Positions 32,820-54,945 of a DNA stretch of 64,000 nucleotides are shown in pieces; position 1 is the first letter of the stretch; each line of letters starts with the position of its first letter. The notes under the pieces were generated by a model, which saw only the letters and a list, made by a program, of their open reading frames with translations, ran no database searches and was not told the origin of the DNA. This stretch comes from Muribaculaceae bacterium Isolate-110 (HZI) (GTDB lineage: Bacteria > Bacteroidota > Bacteroidia > Bacteroidales > Muribaculaceae). A program made the translations under genes and the position numbers. Location: the NCBI GenBank assembly GCA_003762875.1, contig RIBL01000003.1, forward strand, positions 124,001 through 188,000, written 5' to 3'.

Positions 32820-33248
32820 TTAAATATTGTTTTTCCAGCCAGAACGGCGCATTTTCCAAAGCGTGGAAAGGAGGCGCAGGGCAGAAAAAATGTCGGTGCG
32901 GTGGGGTGAGTTTTCGGCGATGCTTCGGGCTTCGATGAGTGCGAGCGAGAGTGCGCCGAGGGTGGTGAGATAAGGAAAGGGAGGGAGGGCTATAGCAGCT
33001 CTGTCAAGTCCTGCAAACGTGATTAGGGCTGCAATAATCATGCCGTCGACCACCGTAAGGCAAAAGAGGGCGAGATAGTATGACGAGAGTTTGGCTACGG
33101 TGCGCCGCAGACCGCGCGAGGTGCACGGCCGGCCGGCACGTCGGGCCTTGCGGAGCCCGCTTACAAGGTCTGCGGAGACGGCAAGAAATATGCCGAGATA
33201 TTCGACCACAAGAAGTGCGAGAAGCGATGAAAAGGTGTGGGATGACAT
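32820..33248 (-). CDS. Phage holin family protein (orphan)
   Basis: The protein has 142 residues. The start, SSLLALLVVEYLGIFLAVSADLVSGLRKARRAGR, is like the first helix and loop of Phage_holin_4 (toxin-secretion/phage-lysis holin) proteins, with two more hydrophobic segments (YYLALFCLTVVDGMIIAALIT; PYLTTLGALSLALIEA). Holins form lesions in the inner membrane. No phage genes are next to it; it is alone between uvrC and the large membrane protein gene. It could be a domesticated holin or a membrane protein of similar shape. Confidence 0.6.
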   Translation of the reverse strand: MSSHTFSSLLALLVVEYLGIFLAVSADLVSGLRKARRAGRPCTSRGLRRTVAKLSSYYLALFCLTVVDGMIIAALITFAGLDRAAIALPPFPYLTTLGALSLALIEARSIAENSPHRTDIFSALRLLSTLWKMRRSGWKNNI

Positions 33249-33440
33249 GATGCGGAAATGTTTTTTTAGATTACTTGCTTAAAATCCCGGAGCGCGTGAA
33301 TTATAGTGCCTGTCGTGATTTCAGCTCGCAATGTTTTGTTGATTGGAATTGCTAAAACACTTCTGCAAAATTAACGTTACAGCCCACACAAAAGGTGCGA
33401 TAATGACGCGTAGAGGCCTGTCCGCATCTCCTCAAACTAC

Positions 33441-53246: not shown

Positions 53247-53288
53247 TCGACGCGACATTATCGCACCATTTCCCACCAAAACCCACCC

Positions 53289-53296
53289 TAACTTTG
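53289..53296 (+). promoter_or_regulatory. -7 element upstream of the proline-rich gene
   Basis: A perfect TAACTTTG, 35 nt before ATG 53332. The -33 region (TTTC) is weak. It supports expression of the small gene. Confidence 0.6.
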
Positions 53297-53331: not shown

Positions 53332-53571
53332 ATGACCCCCACCCCACACCAACAGCAATCACCCCAGCCACCCCACCCTGTCCCCCAGCCTCAAAGCCCA
53401 TCAGCCCCATCCGGCTCATTAGCCCCACAGTCCGAAGAGCCACCCCACCCGGCCCCTACCCATCCGGCCCTCAGCCTCTGGGAACTGATGCGAAAAGAAG
53501 CCACCCCCACCCCCGACGACCCCACGTCAAGAGTCCTCACCGCCACCCGGCCAAGCATCTGGGACCTATAG
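53332..53571 (+). CDS. Small proline-rich protein upstream of the capsid gene
   Basis: The protein has 79 residues. The first 45 are Pro/Gln/Ser-rich and surely disordered. The last 34 contain two similar short words, SLWEL and SIWDL, the second forming the exact C-terminus. A promoter element lies 35 nt upstream of the ATG, which supports a real gene even though the coding strand is unusually C-rich. No family is recognised. Next to an isolated capsid gene the repeated S-[LI]-W-[ED]-L words could be docking peptides, but this is speculative. No terminator is seen before the capsid gene 145 bp on. Confidence 0.5.
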   Translation: MTPTPHQQQSPQPPHPVPQPQSPSAPSGSLAPQSEEPPHPAPTHPALSLWELMRKEATPTPDDPTSRVLTATRPSIWDL

Positions 53572-53599
53572 AGCCTCACCACGCCCCGGCCTCCCTTTT

Positions 53600-53672
53600 A
53601 AAAAGTAAGAGCACGTAAGCGCGACTTCCACCAGCGCGAAGCTTTGTCTAAGCCGCGAGCTTCAGCTCGCCC
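53600..53672. repeat. R2 repeat, copy upstream of the capsid gene
   Basis: AGCGCGAAGCTTTGTC and CGAGCTTCAGCTCGCCC within 53633-53672 match 56267-56306 at 37 of 40 positions. GCGAGC - TTCA - GCTCGC forms a 6-bp hairpin (53655-53670). A preceding AAAAAGTAAGAGC word also has a relative near 56351. Confidence 0.75.
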
Positions 53673-53690
53673 CCCTATAACCTCATAACC

Positions 53691-53707
53691 TTTGGCCGAA
53701 GGCCAAA
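53691..53707 (+). repeat. R1 hairpin repeat before the capsid gene
   Basis: TATAACCTCATAACC is followed by TTTGGCC - GAA - GGCCAAA (53691-53697/53701-53707), a perfect 7-bp stem with triloop, 9 nt before ATG 53717. Confidence 0.8.
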
Positions 53708-53716
53708 TTAACAACC

Positions 53717-54895
53717 ATGACAACAACACAAGTAACCCAGCAAGTCTCCCCCACCCTTCTCCGCAGCCACATCGACGAACGCGTAGCCCGCATACGTCCC
53801 TCCTCCACCCCCCTCGACCAGATCTCACGAATGGCAGGTGCGCGCAACAGCGGATCAATGAAAGTCGACTACTACTCCGTCGACATAAAACCCGGCACAA
53901 CCGCCGTAAAAACCACACTCCACTCACGGAGCTACGCCAAAGGCGAGCCCTTCATCCTATCAGTCATCGACAACTCCTACCTCTCCGAGTCCGACACAGT
54001 ATTCTTCCCAACCGTAAAAACCGACGAAGGCCGGCAGCTCATAGGCTACATCTCCCAATCAGACGGACGCTCAGTCACCATCCATCCCATCAACATCGAA
54101 TATAACGACGACGGACAATACAACCTCCCGACAATCACAAAAGACACCAAAATCGTACGCATGGGCCGCGCAGCAGGCGAGCTCGACGTCCAGACGCCAC
54201 GCTACAACGCCCTGCCAGTCAAAAACTCCAACTACTGTCAGATATTCAAGAGCCAGATTGAAGAATCCCTCCTCCAGCGTCTCTCCGACAAAGAAGTAGG
54301 CTGGACATTCTCCGACCAGGAAGAAGTAGCCATCCTCGACATGCGCATGTGCATGGAGCGATCATTCATGTTTGGCAACAAAGCCAAAATATCACTCGAA
54401 GAAGGCACCGAAATCATGCTCACAGGCGGCATATGGCATCAGACCGACCACGACTTCACCTACAAGACCATTGACAACCCCACAATGACATCCCTGATGC
54501 GACAAGCATTCTCAGGCTCTAACGGATCGACACGCAAAGTACTCCTTGCCGGCTCGGGACTCATCGAACATCTCAGCAACCAAAACTACCACAAAGTAAT
54601 GTCGGTCAACGACCGCGTAGTCAAATGGGGTGTCGACTTCGACCTCATAGTCTCAAAATTCGGCACACTCTACGTAGTCCGAAGCGAAGTCTTCGACCTC
54701 TGTGGCATGGACAACCACGGCATGGTCATCGACCCCGAGTACATCACCAAATACTCCCACATCCCCTTCTCGGCCGACCGCATCAGCTTCCACAAGCAAG
54801 GCGTACGCAACACCGAAGCCGTAGTCCTCACCGAAGCCTCCTGTCTCGTTCTCCGCTACCCCACAGCCCATATGCGCATCATCCCCGAGGCTTAG
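53717..54895 (+). CDS. Orphan phage major capsid protein, SU10/HK97-like
   Basis: The protein has 392 residues. The N-arm IDERVARIRPSSTPLDQISRM is the typical opening of SU10-type (DUF5309-like) major capsid proteins. A beta-rich E-loop and P-domain part follows. The long spine helix reads WTFSDQEEVAILDMRMCMERSFMFG (about 196-220), and an A-domain-like end follows: STRKVLLAGSGLIEHLSN, KWGVDFDLIVSKFGTLYVVRSE, GVRNTEAVVLTEASCLVLRYP. No portal, protease, terminase or tail genes are nearby. It has its own terminator. A domesticated capsid or nanocompartment shell, or a prophage remnant, are the main options. Confidence 0.75.
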   Translation: MTTTQVTQQVSPTLLRSHIDERVARIRPSSTPLDQISRMAGARNSGSMKVDYYSVDIKPGTTAVKTTLHSRSYAKGEPFILSVIDNSYLSESDTVFFPTVKTDEGRQLIGYISQSDGRSVTIHPINIEYNDDGQYNLPTITKDTKIVRMGRAAGELDVQTPRYNALPVKNSNYCQIFKSQIEESLLQRLSDKEVGWTFSDQEEVAILDMRMCMERSFMFGNKAKISLEEGTEIMLTGGIWHQTDHDFTYKTIDNPTMTSLMRQAFSGSNGSTRKVLLAGSGLIEHLSNQNYHKVMSVNDRVVKWGVDFDLIVSKFGTLYVVRSEVFDLCGMDNHGMVIDPEYITKYSHIPFSADRISFHKQGVRNTEAVVLTEASCLVLRYPTAHMRIIPEA

Positions 54896-54901
54896 CCTAC
54901 G

Positions 54902-54945
54902 AGTCCGGACACATCGAAATCACACCTCGATGTGCCCGGACTTTT
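54902..54945 (+). terminator. Terminator directly after the capsid gene
   Basis: AGTCCGGACACATCGA (54902-54917) and TCGATGTGCCCGGACT (54927-54942) pair with one A-C mismatch, then TTTT. It begins 7 nt after the stop codon. Confidence 0.85.

Follow-up and report, generated by a model that had tools for sequence, protein, structure and literature searches.

Gene transfer agents (GTAs) are known by their genes from few lineages, and they are hard to find because they look like phage debris. In encapsulins the shell protein is of the HK97 type and is accompanied by a C-terminal peptide encoded nearby. According to a review, GTAs are multi-locus, have evolved repeatedly and hold 4-14 kb (PMC11841831). 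The nearest case that we found in print is FpGTA of Faecalibacterium. FpGTA resembles the genes presented here in that it belongs to a gut anaerobe and is podovirus-like; its genes for TerL, portal, scaffold and capsid form a compact structural operon, and a second locus contributes additional structural genes as well as lysis genes (PMC12946183). Titles, beginnings of abstracts and passages from the literature (mostly open-access, preprints not included) held no description of GTA genes in Bacteroidota or Muribaculaceae. Judging from its sequence and that of its partner genes, the capsid gene described here, from Muribaculaceae bacterium Isolate-110 (HZI), is most probably part of a domesticated, multi-locus, podovirus-derived GTA.

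The scaffold-capsid operon

The analysed stretch of DNA (the window) comprises 64,000 nucleotides of a draft assembly of 100 contigs. Its scaffold-capsid operon consists of the following features, in the order promoter, 79-aa ORF, capsid gene, hairpin terminator:

53259..53296, + strand: regulon promoter TATCGCAC-N22-TAACTTTG with GCGACAT in front (dyad GCGA-N5-TCGC), from a genome-wide pattern search
53332..53571, + strand: small proline-rich protein (79 aa), by our reading a reduced phage scaffold, from its C-terminal RPSIWD motif and position
53717..54895, + strand: major capsid protein of the SU10-type HK97-fold family (392 aa), from profile matches, tree and dN/dS
54901..54943, + strand: intrinsic terminator at the end of the operon, from its hairpin

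An earlier note on this DNA, made from the letters alone, had taken the product of the intact 392-aa frame for a phage major capsid protein. This was borne out by a match to SU10_MCP in the Pfam scan (E 5.2e-49, cut-off passed), by phrog_26635 (4.2e-68) and by a profile of 18 capsid relatives, which matched the solved major capsid protein 9in6 (1.9e-11). The motif TPLDQISRM, which had served for recognition, occupies residues 31-39. The terminator, described as perfect and 7 nt past the stop, is indeed a strong hairpin (-25.4 kcal/mol, z -8.05, 0/200 shuffles equally good), but its first base lies 5 nt past the capsid stop, and since it contains one internal mismatch it is near-perfect, not perfect. 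The small proline-rich gene upstream and its own -7 element (TAACTTTG) are as the note had them; the second conserved element of the promoter, just upstream of the -7 element, had been missed.

The neighbours of the capsid gene are host-like genes, which we take to be metH, a CE2 esterase and manA (names partly adopted from the earlier note), and no portal is found beside the capsid operon in the window genus (g1). A contiguous array of integration, replication, head, tail and lysis modules, as in a functional prophage, is not present at this locus. That the capsid gene is a lone one holds for this neighbourhood, but not for the genome, where portal, terminase and tail genes lie elsewhere.

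By sequence, the 79-aa proline-rich protein appears to be a scaffold in reduced form whose C-terminal motif is conserved. An ORF ending in [SGD]-[IVAF]-W was found upstream of the capsid gene in 30/30 testable loci, using a loose pattern with no chance control; this count excludes the prophage and outgroup loci L060, L065, L066, L068 and L070, also L061 and L064, as well as L051, whose upstream DNA is too short. Prophage scaffolds in the same position have similar ends (SVWDM, SIFD, SIFE) and comprise 246-269 aa, in contrast to about 60-175 aa for the small proteins upstream of the capsid. We link the small protein to the phage because of its position and this shared motif. Most of the gene tables used throughout were made with a simple purpose-written ORF caller instead of a trained gene finder.

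Portal, terminase and tail genes

The window genome contains one capsid match, one portal gene, one terminase gene and one adaptor match, the latter three all on another contig (C7), where two blocks were detected:

C7:30406-33298: adaptor, portal and two small ORFs in one block, frames open
C7:76758-81103: 822-aa tail protein and terminase in one block, frames open

Portal (431 aa), adaptor (179 aa), terminase (626 aa) and tail protein (822 aa) are all intact. The portal matches P22_portal (1.2e-16) and phrog_156 (2.8e-33), and the terminase profile matches T4 gp17 (7.7e-14). Searched against solved structures, the portal and adaptor profiles gave nothing convincing, and the tail profile gave weak propeller and other matches, nothing more. 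More could be learned from a structure search with a model of the Heminiphilus homologue of the tail protein (pLDDT 90.2, pTM 0.84). Its best PDB matches were chains of the SU10 virion and tail and of the tails of phicrAss001, Pa223, Pan3 and A4 (E 2.9e-11 to 2.9e-9), chains which we presume to be those of the nozzle. T7 and P22 tail entries rank lower, among unrelated propellers. On this basis the 822-aa protein resembles a tail nozzle of the short-tail type; because the TM-scores are low, the match supports the kind of protein and not a close relation. A receptor-binding protein or a protease was not identified among the genes of the set.

Some congeneric relatives carry prophages of the same phage lineage; such prophages are present in G002, G025 and G028, at loci apart from the domesticated genes; that of G025 spans about 60 kb. 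By BLAST, portal, terminase and tail of the window genome match the G025 prophage (the tail at 3.4e-6 only), and its capsid is 40% identical to the prophage capsid. In profile comparisons, the tail protein reached 97% with PH35 of G025 and a protein of about 160 aa 89% with PH32, while a protein of about 140 aa reached 97% with a profile of three prophage proteins (92% with that of G025 alone) and the adaptor 98% with a profile of four (74% with that of G025 alone). Each domesticated gene pairs with a different gene of the prophage. A common phage origin of the set can be read from sequence for seven genes, and from position and motif for the scaffold. Capsid, portal, packaging and tail genes from a tailed phage, one feature of GTAs, are accordingly at hand.

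An intact packaging motor is a further GTA feature. In an alignment of 104 terminases (ORFs of at least 560 aa from the terminase-profile loci, plus 30 terminase loci of family genomes) the residues K126, R128, Q129, G131, T134, E232, D434, D591 and D592 are kept in all sequences, D443 and E496 in 103 and H590 in 101, so that by sequence the motor appears intact in 101-104 of 104 depending on the position. We assign these positions to the ATPase and nuclease centres on the basis of terminase motifs. A smaller alignment showed the nuclease residues in 13/14 sequences, the nuclease part being decayed in G098.

The same gene content would also serve a killer or decoy particle, which, filled with DNA or empty, kills or distracts rivals without useful gene transfer. 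PBSX of Bacillus, the model for such a particle, packages DNA without delivering it, as stated in two papers (PMC7667829, PMC12946183). In our set, however, we recognised no gene for a long or contractile tail, its tail part resembling short-tail nozzles instead, and the terminase is catalytically intact by sequence in 104 sequences. We consider a mere killing or decoy role unlikely.

Arrangement of the genes

In G142 and G071, two genomes of one genus other than that of the window, the genes form a block of eight with the same host genes on both flanks:

G142 and G071: tail, terminase, scaffold, capsid, adaptor, portal, protein of about 140 aa, protein of about 160 aa, in this order

The ORF caller missed the scaffold of G142. 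No integrase was recognised by eye in these two full clusters, nor were own integration or replication genes recognised by eye there or beside the window locus. The tail-terminase pair and the head block lie apart in other genera, and the window genus shows a further split within the head block. Scattering is also seen within single contigs: terminase and capsid of G137 are 46 kb apart on its one contig, and capsid and portal of G004, a genome in which no terminase was found, are 129 kb apart on one long contig. One cluster in some genera and separate loci in others show a virus genome dissolving into its host.

A promoter common to separate loci

The pattern search detected a second copy of the promoter in the window, and behind it a gene that the earlier note had overlooked:

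33366..33402, - strand: second regulon promoter TATCGCAC-N21-TAATTTTG, from the pattern search
32820..33248, - strand: holin-like protein (142 aa), from matches of its relatives

The holin shares 52% identity with one that follows the same promoter in the congener G002. Its identity was assigned via relatives, two of which match Phage_holin_4_1 (PF05105).

In much of the window genus, the sequence TATCGCAC-N22-TANNTTTG precedes the operons of capsid, portal and tail. With spacings of N20-25 allowed, the window genome has 18 sites, 12 with N22, 6 with N21 and none with other spacings, and the reversed pattern gave 0 sites. All 18 sites have TATCGCAC in common because the search pattern required it. 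Beyond the pattern, GCGACAT precedes TATCGCAC in 14 to 18 of the 18 sites, depending on the position, and mostly CTTTT follows it, which results in the dyad GCGA-N5-TCGC. This operator dyad resembles sites of the Crp/Fnr family. At locus L283, beside a gene of the small basic family described below, a gene convergent to the regulon gene reads like a Crp/Fnr-type regulator, which we regard as a lead for the activator only.

The genes behind the sites are scaffold-capsid, the holin, adaptor-portal, tail-terminase and an Amidase_2 endolysin (Amidase 3.3e-16, phrog_822 1.1e-55); further ones encode a DUF6808 protein, an AAA_25 protein with weak C-terminal HTH matches and a protein of 231-260 aa. 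At eight of the 18 sites the gene that follows belongs to the head, packaging, tail, lysis or accessory group. The likeness of the AAA_25 protein to replicative helicases is odd for a GTA. The 231-260-aa protein (at L280:1960-2739, + strand) has a faint likeness to the start of the terminase ATPase without the Walker A residues; that it may be a second terminase was suggested, for the protein behind the C20 promoter, by one weak match of 52 columns (hhalign probability 31%).

A family of small basic proteins has its own promoter copy for each member. Seven intact members and a broken-looking one lie behind the promoter in the window genome, and the family accounts for 32 of 71 sites in nine genomes. 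Its members mostly comprise about 145-215 aa (one is longer), with R/K-rich tails and DUF6291 matches below the cut-off; they were seen at L277, L281, L283, L382, L384, L385 and L386 of the window genome and at many of L335-L354 of G025. These proteins may steer packaging, regulation or immunity. Altogether 55 of the 71 sites precede regulon families and 16 precede other or no clear genes (the 71 sites correspond to 72 stretches among the sites listed, those of relatives already seen before capsid genes being omitted). At L278 and L279 a perfect promoter is followed by no clear gene of the set; the genes there are presumably fba-like and gyrA-like, respectively. Here either host genes were drawn into the regulon or the promoters are remnants of lost genes.

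Within the window genus, sites were found in 23/27 genomes, that of the window included, and the reversed control gave 0 in all 27; the other four lack the exact site and possess the capsid. No site was detected in 146,620 bases of prophage-bearing loci or in 1,139,577 bases of IMG/VR capsid loci. The latter comprise 80 of 102 capsid relatives, 75 at 32-38% identity and five at 44-52%, and the pattern is absent even from the five nearer ones. In other genera the exact promoter was not seen in front of the capsid gene, although look-alikes were. For the lysis genes, AAA_25 and the small basic family, no counterpart was found in the G025 prophage, the only prophage compared gene by gene, so that part of the set has another origin. 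Several loci under common control together with lysis genes are a GTA feature, and the sequences of the window genus point to it.

These data also bear on the proposal of the earlier note that the capsid gene might encode a new nanocompartment, that is, an encapsulin-like closed shell made of the capsid protein alone, for which the small upstream protein would be a cargo or adaptor addressed by its C-terminal peptide. Such a shell would agree with the HK97-type capsid protein, with the lack of a portal beside the capsid operon in g1 and with the short adjoining protein and its motif conserved in 30/30 testable loci, which recalls encapsulin targeting peptides. However, prophage scaffolds in the same position have this motif in common, and no linked enzyme gene was seen. 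Unlike encapsulins, which would have a shell without portal and packaging motor, the capsid is accompanied by portal, adaptor, catalytically intact terminase and nozzle-like protein in the same genome and behind the same promoter, clustered with the capsid in other genera; this argues for DNA packaging rather than a closed enzyme shell. Pfam matched no encapsulin family, SU10_MCP being the only hit of the shell protein. A closed nanocompartment, which we rejected once portal and terminase had been found in the same genome, is very improbable.

Distribution, inheritance and selection

Of 61 genomes searched initially, 38 contain the capsid, namely 27/27 of the window genus (at least as a fragment), 9/10 of other genera of the family and 2/24 of other families. 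Among 109 Muribaculaceae genomes there were matches to the capsid in 100, to the terminase in 100 and to the portal in 101; 94 contain all three core genes and three none, counts which are upper bounds for the domesticated set since weak capsid and prophage-type terminase matches are included. The weak capsid matches in G079, G116, G145 and G147 (E 1.2e-9 to 1.7e-4) have the strength of those to prophage copies and may represent prophage copies only, and some terminase matches (41-45% identity) are of the prophage type. No core gene was matched in G075, G095 and G130, three of the four g50 genomes. Among nearly complete genomes, G004, G031, G100 and G125 lack the terminase, G086 and G136 both capsid and portal, and G061 and G068 the portal.

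Frames without stops were observed in nearly all listed capsid, terminase and portal matches, with single stops in the terminase of G123 and the portal of G072. As to broken copies of the isolated capsid gene, which the earlier note had named as evidence against domestication, that of G013 is split into two parts on contigs C15 and C4, one with an internal stop, and that of G026 (C33) lacks the N-terminal half, only the C-terminal half matching; in G024 the gene runs to the contig end. Relatives do hold distant copies in prophages, a second such point (22-40% identity), but these lie at separate loci and, for those included in the tree, outside the clade. The refuting conditions set in the earlier note thus gave a mixed outcome.

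The capsid tree (50 domesticated and 5 outgroup sequences) separates the two sets with a support of 0.98 and places the 24 sequences of the window genus together (0.996). The genera g46, g39 and g53 are monophyletic (0.96-1.0), g36 and g6 have low support, and g48 is not monophyletic. Capsid and terminase distances correlate (r 0.77, 14 shared genomes, 0/2000 permutations). The comparison of orthologues suggested in the earlier note yielded dN/dS values of 0.033-0.145 for the capsid (13 computable of 15 listed pairs); those for the terminase are 0.037-0.133 (7 of 8 pairs). Vertical inheritance and purifying selection in the host lineage, as in GTAs, are observed with the caveats given by g48, g36 and g6. 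Domestication of the capsid, the other proposal of the earlier note, is supported: the isolated copy occurs family-wide, is nearly always intact, and is mostly inherited vertically under purifying selection.

It is scarcely credible that the genes are remnants of a decaying prophage or satellite without present function, as lost genes, stops and truncated copies in some genomes and the scattering, which could be rearranged debris, might suggest, since dN/dS is 0.03-0.15, frames are free of stops in nearly all listed matches, capsid and terminase evolve in a correlated manner, separate loci have one promoter in common and no integrase was recognised by eye in the two full clusters; dN/dS and the catalytic residues had already led us to disfavour it.

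G057, a genome from a different family of the order, has at L060 a block with genes for scaffold (251 aa), capsid (465 aa), a 302-aa protein and adaptor, with host-like genes, judged by eye, on either side. This locus, whose capsid is one of the outgroup rows of the tree, may perhaps be an older relative or state of the same domesticated system. Of 80 named loci obtained with the terminase profile, 49 have both tail and terminase annotated, and the taxa in their titles are Muribaculaceae, Duncaniella, Muribaculum, Paramuribaculum, Heminiphilus faecis and Barnesiella sp. WM24. The terminase was also seen on contigs titled Paenibacillus, Desulfovibrio, Pseudoflavonifractor, Clostridiales and Lachnospiraceae (L184, L189, L214, L218, L225), which are probably mislabelled genome bins. 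Heminiphilus faecis AM35 and Barnesiella sp. WM24, strains not derived from metagenome bins, possess the tail-terminase pair (the pair alone was looked up), so a direct test looks possible.

A probable domesticated gene transfer agent

Motor, portal, shell, short tail, lysis genes, a joint promoter and mostly vertical descent are the picture expected of a GTA-like system. The best explanation, as far as sequences indicate, is that its source was a SU10/P22-like short-tailed phage acquired before the Muribaculaceae radiated. Scattered intact genes with one switch suggest a machine for packaging and exporting DNA.

The activator, the assembly of particles, their loading with host DNA, cell lysis and DNA transfer are inferred from the gene content. 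A dedicated activator would bind GCGA-N5-TCGC, the dyad immediately before the -7 box, and turn on the scattered operons together; GCGACATTATCGCAC could be used as DNA bait for it. The scaffold might, via its C-terminal motif, help the capsid protein to form a procapsid, probably smaller than that of the ancestor. Adaptor and portal would form the entry vertex, through its kept ATPase and nuclease residues the terminase would fill the head with DNA, the nozzle would close the short tail, and holin and amidase would burst the cell.

Against the GTA reading we counted the missing exact promoter outside the genus and in four of its 27 genomes, the separate origin of the lysis, AAA_25 and small basic genes, the absence of a recognised receptor-binding protein or protease, the gene losses and damaged copies, the weak capsid matches, the poorly supported or non-monophyletic genera in the tree, the 16 of 71 sites before other or no clear genes and the helicase-like AAA_25 protein. 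Published results were counted on both sides. In favour, mouse-gut virus-like particles yielded 46 contigs with a pattern of generalised transduction or GTA of unknown agent, and 83/186 contigs with a mobilisation pattern belong to Bacteroidetes (PMC7667829). Against it, the share of Bacteroidetes among the mobilised contigs of that study was similar to that among all contigs (PMC7667829), and in human faeces GTA events were reported in Gram-positive families and only lateral transduction for Bacteroidota (PMC12946183). If the GTA reading is true, a GTA would explain part of this packaging of host DNA in mouse-gut virus-like particles. We are evenly divided about the fuller proposal of a working GTA, the first with genes known from Bacteroidota, near-core in a dominant mouse-gut family, dissolved into the chromosome, with one dedicated activator site and with an expanding, recruited group of small basic proteins. 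Were it active, members of a gut family abundant in mice would have a permanent route for exchanging genes. A family-wide scattered set with one promoter also offers a search route for others, by a shared operator and not by a gene cluster.

Comparison with known systems

Among phage records, the capsid matched only those of the Bacteroides phages BF1-TP2 (PQ571263), BS-TP4 (PQ571277) and BKO1-TP3 (PQ571269), at 33-35% identity, and the same three are the top phage records for the terminase (39-40%). They are whole phages of 64-68 kb, whereas next to the Muribaculaceae loci we recognised neither replication nor integration genes. In these three records the terminase-matching stretch is annotated as tail spike and the capsid-matching stretch as DUF5309 or DUF2951. 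The best structural matches of the tail protein, the tails of SU10, phicrAss001 and other podoviruses (7z4b, 7qol, 7z47; E 2.9e-11 to 9.7e-10), have TM-scores of 0.25-0.41 and 7% identity, with other beta-propeller proteins from rank 12.

RcGTA-type agents of Alphaproteobacteria have a different phage ancestor and different regulators. They resemble the Muribaculaceae set in having vertically inherited phage-derived genes at several loci (PMC11841831), together with a headful terminase and lysis genes. For FpGTA particles have been shown, whereas the Muribaculaceae set is known from genes alone, and the two protein sets are compared here by description. FpGTA belongs to one genus of Bacillota and consists of two operons (PMC12946183). 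The Bacteroidota set, in contrast, is found in most of the sampled family, in the window genome at more loci and with a shared promoter.
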